Shown here one piece after another: positions 19,219-22,425 of a stretch of DNA of 64,000 nucleotides. The DNA is from Microbacterium sp. oral taxon 186 str. F0373 (GTDB lineage: Bacteria > Actinomycetota > Actinomycetes > Actinomycetales > Microbacteriaceae), in NCBI RefSeq assembly GCF_000411455.1, contig NZ_KE150457.1, forward strand, positions 872,474 through 936,473, written 5' to 3'. A program made the translations under genes and the position numbers. Within the stretch, counting starts at the first letter, position 1; each line of letters starts with the position of its first letter. Under the pieces are notes generated by a model. The model did not search any database and was not told the DNA's origin. It saw nothing but the letters and a program-made list of their open reading frames with translations.

Positions 19219-19250
19219 AACTTGCACAGCAGTGTGCAAGTTAATACACT
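19219..19250 (+). promoter_or_regulatory. TetR operator overlapping promoter of the YhgE operon
   Basis: AACTTGCACA (19219-19228) and TGTGCAAGTT (19233-19242) form a perfect 10-bp-arm palindrome around GCAG. TTGCAC inside the first arm (19223-19228) can serve as -35, with TACACT (19245-19250) as -10 at 16-bp spacing. The GTG start of the TetR gene is at 19257, the expected transcription start, so the message should be leaderless. A bound TetR dimer would block the promoter, giving autoregulation. Confidence 0.85.
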
Positions 19251-19256
19251 GACCGG

Positions 19257-19880
19257 GTGACCACCCCCGCACCCCTTCGACGCCCGAGAAAGGATGCCGC
19301 CGCCAACCGTGCCGGCATCCTGCAGGCGGCTGCGACCACCCTGGCGCTCGACCCGTCTGCCTCGATCGACCAGATCGCCCGCGCCGCCGGATTGTCACGG
19401 CGTGCACTGTATGGACACTTCGACGACCGCCAGGCGCTGCTCACGGAGCTCATCGCCGCGGGCGCCCAGCGCTTCAACGCGATCGCCTCGTCGCTCGACG
19501 AGCCGCACCCTCCGCTCGCCCTGGCCCGGTTGACGGCGGCGCTGTGGACCGAGGCCGCCCATGTGCAGGTCGCGGCCGCTCTCGCGCTCGACGAGGCGCA
19601 CCTCGAGCAGACCGCCACCGCGCTCGCCCCCCTGCGACGCGCGCTCGTCGGTGTCGTCCGCGCCGGTCAGGACGACGGCACCCTCCGCGTCGACATGGCC
19701 GCCCCGACCCTCGCGCGTCTCATCGAAGAGACGGCGCGCGCCGCGGTCAGCCGCATCGACGCGTCGTCACCGATCGCGACCTCGCTCGCCGTGCGCGCCG
19801 TCCTCAGCATCGCCGGACTGTCCTGGCGCGAGTCCGAAGCGCTGCTGAACGCCCACCCCGATGTGCTGGAGGCGAACTGA
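19257..19880 (+). CDS. TetR/AcrR-family regulator
   Basis: 207 aa. N-terminal TetR helix-turn-helix: ANRAGILQAAATTLALDP, then DQIARAAGLSRRALYGHF. The C-terminal all-helical domain is unlike known ligands by eye. There is no ribosome binding site before the GTG, consistent with a leaderless message. Its stop overlaps the start of the next gene, and a palindromic operator lies just upstream, so it probably represses its own three-gene operon. Confidence 0.92.
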   Translation: MTTPAPLRRPRKDAAANRAGILQAAATTLALDPSASIDQIARAAGLSRRALYGHFDDRQALLTELIAAGAQRFNAIASSLDEPHPPLALARLTAALWTEAAHVQVAAALALDEAHLEQTATALAPLRRALVGVVRAGQDDGTLRVDMAAPTLARLIEETARAAVSRIDASSPIATSLAVRAVLSIAGLSWRESEALLNAHPDVLEAN

Positions 19881-20575
19881 TGCGCGTGCGTCTGGATGGG
19901 GTGCAGAAGGGCCGCCGCGGAGAGGCCCTGGGCGCGACGAGCCTCAGCTACCGCAGCGGCCGCGCCACCCTCGCGGTCGCCGAGACCGAGCAGCGCCCCA
20001 CGGTGCTGGGGCTCATCTCCTCAGGGCGCATGCGCCCGGATGCCGGCACCGTCGCACTGGACGACGCCATCGACCGCCGCGCCCGCAACGCGCTGCGCCG
20101 CCGCGTCGCCCTCGTCGATGCCCCCGATGTGAGCGAGCCTGCGCCGAACATCGCGGTGGCCGGTGTCGTCGCCGAAGAGCTGATGTTCGCTGGCCTCGCA
20201 TCCGACCCGCTGTCGGCACGACGGTGGCTCGACGAGCACGACCTCCGATCGTCGGCGCGACTGCCGATCGCCGACCTCGCACCGGCGCACCGGCTGCGCA
20301 TTCTTCTCGAACTCGCGTCCGCGCGTCCCGGGGTCGACGGCCTCGTCCTCGTCTCCCCCGACCGCCACGGCGGCGACCCCGCCCAGTGGTGGGAGCTCGC
20401 CGAGGAGTTCGCCGACCGAGGGTTCGCCGTGCTCGTCATCGCCGGCGAAGCGGCCGCTGCTGCACTGGCCGACACCTCGGCATCCCTGGCGCCACATCCC
20501 TCCAGCGCCCGCGTCCTCAAGCCCAGTCGCGTGCGCCTGCGCACCACCGCTCCCCTCGCTGGAGGCCACCGATGA
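19880..20575 (+). CDS. ABC-ATPase-like protein lacking all ATPase motifs
   Basis: 231 aa. The overall layout follows an ABC ATPase: an N-terminal strand MRVRLDGVQKG, a RPDAGTVALD segment as after Walker A, RRRVALVDAP, a helical part, then a C-terminal LVLVSPDRHGGD where Walker B should be. The key motifs are gone: the P-loop position reads AETEQRPTVLGL instead of GxxGxGK(S/T), the signature position reads IADLAPAHRLRI instead of LSGGQ, and Walker B lacks the catalytic glutamate. It overlaps the TetR stop and the YhgE start, so it is made together with the membrane protein. Probably a non-hydrolysing scaffold or regulator of YhgE; that is inference. Confidence 0.7.
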   Translation: MRVRLDGVQKGRRGEALGATSLSYRSGRATLAVAETEQRPTVLGLISSGRMRPDAGTVALDDAIDRRARNALRRRVALVDAPDVSEPAPNIAVAGVVAEELMFAGLASDPLSARRWLDEHDLRSSARLPIADLAPAHRLRILLELASARPGVDGLVLVSPDRHGGDPAQWWELAEEFADRGFAVLVIAGEAAAAALADTSASLAPHPSSARVLKPSRVRLRTTAPLAGGHR

Positions 20576-22425
20576 AGATCCCCGCCATGATCGCTGCCGA
20601 GCTGCGGCGCCTCACGGCGACGCGGATGTCGGTCATCGCCCTCGTCGCCCTCATGCTCGTGCCCGTCCTCTACGGCGGGCTCTACCTGTGGGCCAACCAG
20701 GACCCGTACGGGCACTTCTCGGAGGTTCCCGTCGCACTGGTCGACCTCGATGAGGGGTCGGGGACCGGCGGCGATGCGGCACAGTACGGCAGCCAGGTCT
20801 CGCAGCAGCTCATCGACGGTCACGCCTTCGACTGGCGTGCGATGAGCGAGGCGGATGCCGCGACCGCGCTCCACGACGGCACGGTCGACTTCATCGTGAC
20901 GATCCCCTCGGACTTCTCCGCGGCCCTCGTCTCCTCCGGCGGTACCGCACCGCACCAGGCGACGATCGGGCTGCAGACCAACGACGCCAACAACTACCTG
21001 GCCTCGACCATCGGCACGCAGGCTGTCGAGAAGATCCGTCGCTCGGTCGCCGAGCTCGTCGGTCAGGAGGCGGCGTCGCGCCTGCTCGGAGGCCTCGCCG
21101 ACATCCGCGCCCAGCTCGTGCAGGCGGCCGACGGTGCCACCACCCTCGCCGACGGCGCCTCCCAGGTCGCCGCAGGCAGCACGACGCTGGCGCAGGGCAC
21201 CGCGGCGCTCGCGCAGGGCGCAGGAACGCTCACCGACGGTGCGAACCAGGTCGCCTCGGGCGCCGCGCAGGTCGCCGACGGAGCAAACCGCGTGTCGGCA
21301 GGCACGGCGACGCTCGACGGCTACGCCGATCGCGCGTCATCCGCAGGGCAGCAGGTGGTCGCCGCGATCCCGCAGGCCCGCACCGACATCGCGAAACTGC
21401 TGGCCGACCGCGGAGTCGACCAGCCGACGATCGACCGGGTGCTCGCTGCGCTCGATCCCATCGGCGATGCCGCGGTGACCGGCAACGACCGCCTTCAGGC
21501 CGCGGTGTCGCAGGTTGACGAGCTGGCCTCTGGGGCGGCGCAGGTCGCCTCCGGCGCCGCACAGGTCTCCTCCGGGGCGGCGCAGGTCGCCGGCGGCGCC
21601 GGCTCGCTCCGCGACGGCGCCGACCAAGCCGCGGCGGGGGCTGCGGCCCTCGCGGCCGGGACGGGTCAGGTCGCCGGCGGCGCCGGCTCGCTGCGCGACG
21701 GACTGGCGTCGGGGGTGCAGGCGATTCCCGACACGGATGCCGCAACCCGTGATGCGCAGGCCAAGACCATCTCCGATCCGGTCGCGGTGAGCTCGAGTGC
21801 GCAGACCTCGGCGGGAGACTACGGCGCCGGGCTCGCCCCGTTCTTCGCGGCTCTCGCCGGCTGGATCGGCATCTACGCGCTCTTCCTCATCGTCAAGCCC
21901 ATCTCGCGCCGCGCCGTCACGGCGCTGCGCTCGCCCCTCCGGGTGACCATCGCCGGCTGGCTGACCCCTGCCTTCCTGGGCAGCGTGGGCATGGTTGCGC
22001 TGTTCGGGGTGCTCTCCTTCGCCCTCGGCTTCCGGTTCGCCAACCCGCTCGGCACTCTCGGCATCCTGATGCTCGCCTCTTTCACCTACGCGGCGATCAT
22101 CCTCGCGCTGAACGTCTGGCTGGGCTCGGTCGGCCAGTTCGTCGGCCTCGTACTCATGGTGCTGCAGCTTGTGACGGCGGGAGGGACCTTCCCCTGGCAG
22201 ACGCTGCCGGCGCCGCTGGCGGCGCTGCACCACGTGCTGCCGATGGGATACGTCGTCGACGCCATGCGCCAGCTGATGTACGGCGGCGATCTCGCCCGCG
22301 TCGGCACGGACATCAGTGTGCTGCTGCTGTGGCTCGGCGGGGCGCTGGCCCTGGCGGCCGTGGGAGTGACACGGATGACACACCGCCGGACGCTCCGCGA
22401 CCTGCAGCCGAGCCTCATCGGGTAG
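20572..22425 (+). CDS. YhgE/Pip-family membrane protein
   Basis: 617 aa. One N-terminal membrane segment (about residues 17-38), an extracytoplasmic region of about 370 aa, then five or six C-terminal membrane segments like an ABC-2 permease. The outer region contains QVAxGAA / LxxGAxxL repeats (about residues 185-245 and 315-390), forming the long coiled or beta-helical stalk known in YhgE/Pip proteins. The family includes the Lactococcus phage-infection protein and proteins linked to export; biochemical function is poorly defined. Part of the repeat is also duplicated at nucleotide level (near 21588-21618 and 21669-21699). ATG overlaps the preceding gene by 4 bp. Confidence 0.9.
   Translation: MKIPAMIAAELRRLTATRMSVIALVALMLVPVLYGGLYLWANQDPYGHFSEVPVALVDLDEGSGTGGDAAQYGSQVSQQLIDGHAFDWRAMSEADAATALHDGTVDFIVTIPSDFSAALVSSGGTAPHQATIGLQTNDANNYLASTIGTQAVEKIRRSVAELVGQEAASRLLGGLADIRAQLVQAADGATTLADGASQVAAGSTTLAQGTAALAQGAGTLTDGANQVASGAAQVADGANRVSAGTATLDGYADRASSAGQQVVAAIPQARTDIAKLLADRGVDQPTIDRVLAALDPIGDAAVTGNDRLQAAVSQVDELASGAAQVASGAAQVSSGAAQVAGGAGSLRDGADQAAAGAAALAAGTGQVAGGAGSLRDGLASGVQAIPDTDAATRDAQAKTISDPVAVSSSAQTSAGDYGAGLAPFFAALAGWIGIYALFLIVKPISRRAVTALRSPLRVTIAGWLTPAFLGSVGMVALFGVLSFALGFRFANPLGTLGILMLASFTYAAIILALNVWLGSVGQFVGLVLMVLQLVTAGGTFPWQTLPAPLAALHHVLPMGYVVDAMRQLMYGGDLARVGTDISVLLLWLGGALALAAVGVTRMTHRRTLRDLQPSLIG

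Follow-up and report, generated by a model that had tools for sequence, protein, structure and literature searches.

The YhgE/Pip family includes Lactococcus Pip, Enterococcus EF0858 (PIPEF), EsaA and YueB. Its members are known mainly as phage infection proteins, and the YhgE/PIP domain is described as having no known function in a paper whose text contains the terms "ATPase" and "ABC" 0 times (PMC4999554). Here we describe a YhgE/Pip gene of Microbacterium sp. oral taxon 186 str. F0373, located in a stretch of 64,000 nucleotides (contig NZ_KE150457.1, positions 872,474 to 936,473; hereafter the window, whose own numbering is used throughout), that stands last in a unit of three same-strand genes, behind those for a TetR-family regulator and a 231-residue protein resembling the nucleotide-binding domain (NBD) of ATP-binding cassette (ABC) transporters. 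The YhgE protein is like Lactococcus Pip, EF0858 and EsaA in carrying TIGR03061, TIGR03062 and a large outer region between its first helix and a C-terminal membrane block, and differs from them by this dedicated NBD-like neighbor. We propose, with a probability of about 0.62, that the middle protein is a pseudo-NBD, devoid of ATP binding and hydrolysis, that is retained in the cytoplasm as an obligate subunit that docks on, or gates, YhgE.

Among described systems, the ABC NBDs LptB, EcfA2, MlaF and FtsE resemble the NBD-like protein in predicted fold (over its residues 1-198) and in the adjacency of their genes to one for an ABC-2-like membrane protein; it differs in lacking Walker A, the Walker B Asp-Glu pair, the Q-loop Gln, the LSGGQ signature and any match of the single protein to ABC_tran. 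ABC exporters with a degenerate site, such as Pdr5 and ABCG5/G8 and also TM287/288 and CFTR, retain a canonical site within the complex, whereas the unit in the window encodes no canonical NBD. The natural loss of NBD catalytic residues that such exporters share with our protein is exemplified by Pdr5, in which Cys replaces the Walker A Lys, Asn the Walker B Glu and Tyr the H-loop His, and by ABCG5/G8, in which Arg replaces the Walker A Lys (PMC7756269). MmpL/RND transporters are of interest in turn for a second YhgE locus in the same genome, where an MMPL protein (PF03176) is encoded directly 5' of YhgE and differs from its described relatives by an eroded ABC-type domain at its C terminus. 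Neither the pairing of YhgE with a pseudo-NBD nor an MMPL-ABC fusion was found described in the titles and abstract openings of the open-licence PubMed Central papers listed by the searches. As documented below, an NBD-like partner adjoins YhgE across several actinobacterial orders and classes, its fold and gene neighbor being kept and its P-loop eroded stepwise.

Predicted fold and missing motifs of the NBD-like protein

The NBD-like protein is encoded on the plus strand at 19880..20575. Its AlphaFold model (predicted local distance difference test, pLDDT, 90; predicted template modelling score, pTM, 0.82) aligned by VIA with LptB (6b8b) over 192 residues, spanning residues 1-198, with Z 16.4 and a root-mean-square deviation of 3.5, and was matched to LptB by Foldseek with E 9e-11. 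The 50 VIA matches listed are ABC proteins, counting two, 2it1 and 5x5y, that are not so named by their titles and that we take to be ABC proteins. Searches with the single sequence were far less telling: no Pfam family scored over its cut-off and ABC_tran gave no match at E 1, phmmer found no match in the PDB, and among NCBIfam models one ABC ATPase appeared at E 0.0097, far below its cut-off. A profile of 52 homologues ranked ABC ATPases first in the PDB, the best match (TM_0222/EcfA2, E 3.4e-4) spanning the N-terminal third of the protein only, and 10 of 38 members of one homologue alignment (A4) matched ABC_tran at E <= 0.1 (best E 4.3e-5). We conclude that the protein is predicted to adopt the full ABC NBD fold. 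The preliminary description of this DNA had read the outline of an ABC ATPase lacking Walker A, the signature and the Walker B Glu from the sequence alone, and had named an unrelated structure as grounds for abandoning that view; such a fold is ruled out by the predicted structure, which matches ABC NBDs, and the alignment described next agrees on the missing motifs. A resolvase assignment (Pfam E 0.014, below cut-off) was set aside, both profile and fold pointing to ABC. Homologues range from about 190 to 396 residues, and those at loci L015, L016, L020 and L148 have extra C-terminal sequence of differing lengths.

Alignment with six ordinary ABC ATPases located the five places at which the motifs should lie, all on the plus strand. 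At the Walker A place (residues 33-45, VAETEQRPTVLGL; 19976..20014) the protein reads AETEQRPT instead of GxxxxGK[ST], with Pro40 in the Lys column. At the Q-loop place (residues 76-87, VALVDAPDVSEP; 20105..20140) the Gln column holds Ala81. The signature place (residues 131-140, ADLAPAHRLR; 20270..20299) has LAPAH for LSGGQ, and at the Walker B/D-loop place (residues 153-171, DGLVLVSPDRHGGDPAQWW; 20336..20392) Val158 and Ser159 occupy the Asp and Glu columns, next to a new motif, P[DE]RHG. The H-loop (switch) place (residues 183-190, AVLVIAGE; 20426..20449) aligns loosely, the ordinary ABC ATPases being themselves non-uniform there, and the switch His is probably lost.

These features are shared across the order to which Microbacterium belongs. 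Among 190 distinct members from that order (216 locus entries, the protein in the window included), none has Walker A within residues 1-80 or LSGGQ within residues 101-190, and 172 have P[DE]RHG; one locus (L071) was left out of the motif alignment for the family, and a gene remnant considered below (L116) fell beneath its threshold. Mean conservation reached 0.79 at the Q-loop place, the highest of the five, 0.72 at the P-loop and Walker B places and 0.66 at the H-loop, compared with 0.55 elsewhere. The most conserved window of 10 residues, VSPDRHGGDP (0.83), lies at the Walker B place, and the stretch VVAEELMFAG in the Q-loop/helical region reached 0.81. Ratios of nonsynonymous to synonymous substitution (dN/dS) between the gene and three close relatives were 0.08, 0.09 and 0.11. 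As judged from these comparisons, the motif loss is fixed across the order and under purifying selection, and loss of ATP binding by the 231-residue protein is strongly implied. Decay of this one copy, for which close homologues with an intact P-loop would have spoken, is ruled out by the lack of a P-loop in all 190 members together with the low dN/dS; the earlier suggestion that selection has favored a non-catalytic role, and that the gene is not decaying, is borne out to that extent.

Linkage to YhgE

The NBD-like gene was matched in 137 of 198 genomes of the genus, strongly in 125, and in 138 of 299 genomes of the family Microbacteriaceae, representing 45 of its 85 genera. When strong matches were tallied in the 198 same-genus genomes, 125 had both the NBD-like gene and its YhgE, 73 had neither and 0 had one alone; in this count weak matches were scored as absent (12 for the NBD, all at E 1.7e-7 or weaker, and 47 for YhgE), the YhgE match of one genome (G060; E 3e-68, 31% identity) was taken for a paralogue, and that of another (G044), a fragment of 58% identity adjoining its NBD-like gene, was accepted as genuine. 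YhgE lies 3' of the NBD-like gene on the same strand at all 77 in-family loci (70 distinct genes). In the window the intact middle frame overlaps both neighbors, as noted from the outset, the TetR/NBD-like junction being TGATG (1 nt) and the NBD-like/YhgE junction ATGA (4 nt). The latter overlap of 4 nt recurs in 73 of 79 named loci, the junction being -1 in three others and +70 in the remaining three, in keeping with the idea that the protein is made in step with YhgE. An ordinary ABC ATPase was found near the NBD-like gene in 4 of 80 named loci, 3.6 to 5.8 kb off, within flanks of up to 6 kb.

Some individual loci merit mention. In one genome (G137, locus L116) TetR is present, the NBD-like gene is recognizable for about its first 45 codons and no close YhgE match is seen; here the two genes were apparently lost together as a unit. 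The nearest NBD-like gene among named records is that of Microbacterium hominis NBRC 15708 (93% identity), our own genome possibly having been left out of that set. A contig labelled Stenotrophomonas maltophilia P13 carries a Microbacterium-type module with 76% identity, which probably represents contamination.

A second YhgE locus and other arrangements

The preliminary description was silent on a second YhgE locus in this genome and on the graded series presented further below. Directly 5' of the second YhgE, on the minus strand (L108:5605-8655; contig C1 of the same genome, approximately 1543604-1546654), is a gene for an MMPL/RND protein (PF03176, E 4.8e-78) that carries about 200 additional residues as a C-terminal domain. 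Used as a query, that domain was matched in 25 of 100 genomes of the family, and at all 25 loci YhgE follows, its match starting -1 to +56 nt past the domain. The MMPL assignment was confirmed by Pfam in four proteins, namely that of the genome under study (one of the 25) and those of loci L331, L332 and L320, all three outside the 25. Against the PDB the fused domain found ABC ATPases at the top (EcfA, E 1e-7), and hhalign paired it with two sets of free NBD-like proteins (E 1e-13, probability 98, 86 columns; E 3e-18, probability 99, 107 columns). By these profile comparisons the fused domain is ABC-derived, as is visible in its N-terminal half. Walker A is kept in three of the 25 (L361, L366 and L374), which bears on the question first raised, whether all YhgE neighbors in Microbacteriaceae lack a P-loop: the free NBD-like neighbors do, in every member of the family among the 190, and the fused domains do in all but these three. 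A further fusion, at locus L320 (4081-6201, minus strand) in another family, f24, joins MMPL to an ABC_tran domain that scores over the cut-off (57.7 bits) and reads GPSGSGKT, and is followed by YhgE.

YhgE also occurs alone or in tandem YhgE-YhgE pairs with no NBD-like gene detected, so that YhgE need not be ATP-driven. The tandem matches of this kind (L317, L319, L321-L329, L335 and L346, in families f35, f42 and f56) are possibly heterodimers.

Graded erosion outside the family

Relatives outside the order were represented by the 21 loci with the strongest matches (L263-L283) in a 396-genome sample of the phylum. A YhgE match (E 6e-19 to 1e-13) adjoins the NBD-like gene at 16 of them; at the other five both Walker A and LSGGQ are present and the flank examined has no YhgE match, and these five are, by their motifs, ordinary ABC ATPases. 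Profiles of the outside set and of the protein family of the order aligned over 190 columns (probability 99.8, E 5e-28). The Walker A place of the YhgE-linked relatives varies by family: GRNGSGKT in f42, GPSG[ST]GRT in f21, GSGGRGRT and others in f22, and unrecognizable in f56, the f24 relative having GPSGSGKT inside its MMPL-fused domain; in the order of the window it reads GEPGHGHT and others, and in its own family AETEQRPT. LSGGQ is absent from all YhgE-linked proteins of this outside set. Where the Walker B Asp remains outside the order, the Glu is frequently Asp (VDD). This natural range of Lys, Arg, His and no-P-loop variants makes the ATP dependence of YhgE open to comparison.

A quick tree built without the P-loop columns set 81 YhgE-linked rows apart from six ordinary ABC rows and requires at least three changes between Lys and non-Lys at Walker A. 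From the family 23 rows were chosen for it; one locus (L232) and two duplicates (L348 and L353) were omitted, and two MmpL-fused domains (L320 and L332) are among the rows of its phylum set. On this tree a single origin of the YhgE-linked NBD-like proteins is likely, not proven, because the outgroup is small.

Proposed role and alternatives

The preservation of the whole predicted NBD fold, the Q-loop/helical region, the gene order and the overlapping frames, together with loss of the ATP site, fits docking without ATP use. We envisage that the pseudo-NBD would bind the cytoplasmic face of YhgE in the manner of an NBD on its permease, that the retained Q-loop/helical region would be the likely contact with YhgE, and that the docked protein would stabilize or gate YhgE without ATP, YhgE in these bacteria then not being an ATP-driven pump. 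If true, this would provide a clear example from nature of an ABC subunit whose retention serves docking alone. For the biological roles first suggested for the unit, namely phage receptor, envelope stress or antimicrobial resistance, the analysis turned up no argument either way.

Several observations weigh against this reading. The place of the signature is no more conserved than the remainder of the protein (0.53 vs 0.55), and the P-loop and Walker B places rank 34th of 182 and 21st of 176 windows of their respective lengths; they are well conserved, not exceptional. Some YhgE-linked relatives in other orders and classes have an intact Walker A or score over the ABC_tran cut-off of 25 bits (four of eight chosen, at 61, 53, 50 and 33 bits; two others scored 18 and two gave no match), so that a version using ATP may occur in those lineages. 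The split on which the single origin rests has a support of 94, below the 95 that the tree tool stars, in a tree of a chosen subset of members whose outgroup was six ordinary ABC ATPases, four of them near-identical. The conservation of P[DE]RHG is possibly that of a new ligand site, with which it is compatible. The model of YhgE, moreover, is of low confidence (pLDDT 73, pTM 0.44).

Judging from the MmpL fusion, the NBD fold may act as a link joining YhgE to a partner. At the second locus this fold would connect YhgE with the MmpL portion, and the proton gradient that MmpL uses might supply energy there, and the fusion is in that sense a direct lead on the energy source of YhgE. A bolder version, in which the dead ABC domain couples YhgE mechanically to a proton-driven RND transporter, fused at the MmpL locus and free at the locus in the window, would amount to a hybrid transport class; we advance it tentatively and would sooner doubt than assume it.

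An alternative that we consider unlikely is an asymmetric ABC transporter in which the protein forms the inactive half of a heterodimer, the other half being an ordinary ATPase whose gene lies elsewhere. Degenerate sites with several altered motifs are indeed known, as in Pdr5 and ABCG5/G8 (PMC7756269), and the Lys to Arg state of ABCG5/G8 recurs among the NBD-like relatives. However, the three-gene unit encodes no second ATPase, the few canonical ABC domains in flanks of up to 6 kb (4 of 80 named loci) lie at least 3.6 kb away, and with the Walker motifs and the signature both lost a composite site would miss parts on both of its faces.

It is likewise improbable that the old nucleotide site now serves as a novel ligand-binding or enzymatic site, with AETEQRP and P[DE]RHG at two former phosphate-binding places and the protein acting as a sensor or as an enzyme feeding YhgE. 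The location of the top 10-residue window at the Walker B place is what such a site would lead one to expect, but the Q-loop/helical stretch is as conserved, no known catalytic motif was recognized in the NBD-like protein, and the YhgE-linked relatives outside the order in the displayed alignment have no P[DE]RHG. A signaling adaptor between YhgE and the TetR regulator would account for three genes that overlap or abut behind a conserved operator core, but is very unlikely given that no TetR was detected directly 5' in 15 of the 77 in-family loci, all of which have the pair, and that outside the family a single TetR query placed one directly upstream in 4 of 28 loci and elsewhere in the locus in six more. 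That the protein is a decaying relic accords with the missing ATPase motifs and is scarcely credible when dN/dS is 0.08-0.11, most frames are intact, new residues are fixed and co-inheritance is strict.

Other features of the unit

The YhgE/Pip protein (617 residues; 20572..22425, plus strand) matches TIGR03061 (E 3e-49; 166.8 bits, cut-off 96.15) and TIGR03062 (E 6e-58; 195.8 bits, cut-off 102.2). A first helix, predicted at residues 18-41 (20623..20694) in the low-confidence model, would lie in the membrane. It is followed by an outer stalk (21085..21723) of two long predicted helices (residues 172-279 and 284-384) with heptad repeats, the outer domain containing ten xxxLxxG heptad stretches (TIGR03057), and then by a C-terminal membrane block of ABC-2 type (residues 417-604; 21820..22383; PF12698, E 9e-23). 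With the YhgE model Foldseek gave one match at E <= 0.001, MmpL5 (3e-4, TM-score 0.13), followed by an ABC-2 transporter domain (3cni) and the transporter ABCH-9C, both at 2e-3; the model, as a prediction, is too weak to build on.

The protein ends in a tail, RTLRDLQPSLIG, encoded at 22384-22422, and similar tails (WTLxxLxPEL-like) occur at other loci. The tail is kept in many NBD-linked YhgE proteins and missing from most of the tandem or solo YhgE proteins shown, with exceptions at L347 and at f56 loci. A role for it in docking was considered and dropped, L347 having the tail with no NBD detected and three f56 loci having an NBD and no tail.

The TetR-family regulator (207 residues; 19257..19880, plus strand; GTG start, TGA stop) has a TetR_N domain (PF00440, E 3.8e-8; 33.4 bits, cut-off 24). 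Its place in the same operon, as first described, is consistent with the 1-nt junction and with the detection of TetR directly 5' of the NBD-like gene in 62 of 77 in-family loci; detection in this and in the 28 loci outside the family relied on one TetR query, which diverged regulators may escape. Upstream, the palindrome originally pointed out at 19219..19242 is a perfect 10-bp inverted repeat, AACTTGCACA-N4-TGTGCAAGTT, with the spacer GCAG. Its core, TGCACA-N4-TGTGCA, lies within -120 to +40 of the TetR start, frequently about 38 nt 5' of it, in 67 of the 76 named loci with a plus-strand TetR, and the repeat is therefore very likely the TetR operator.

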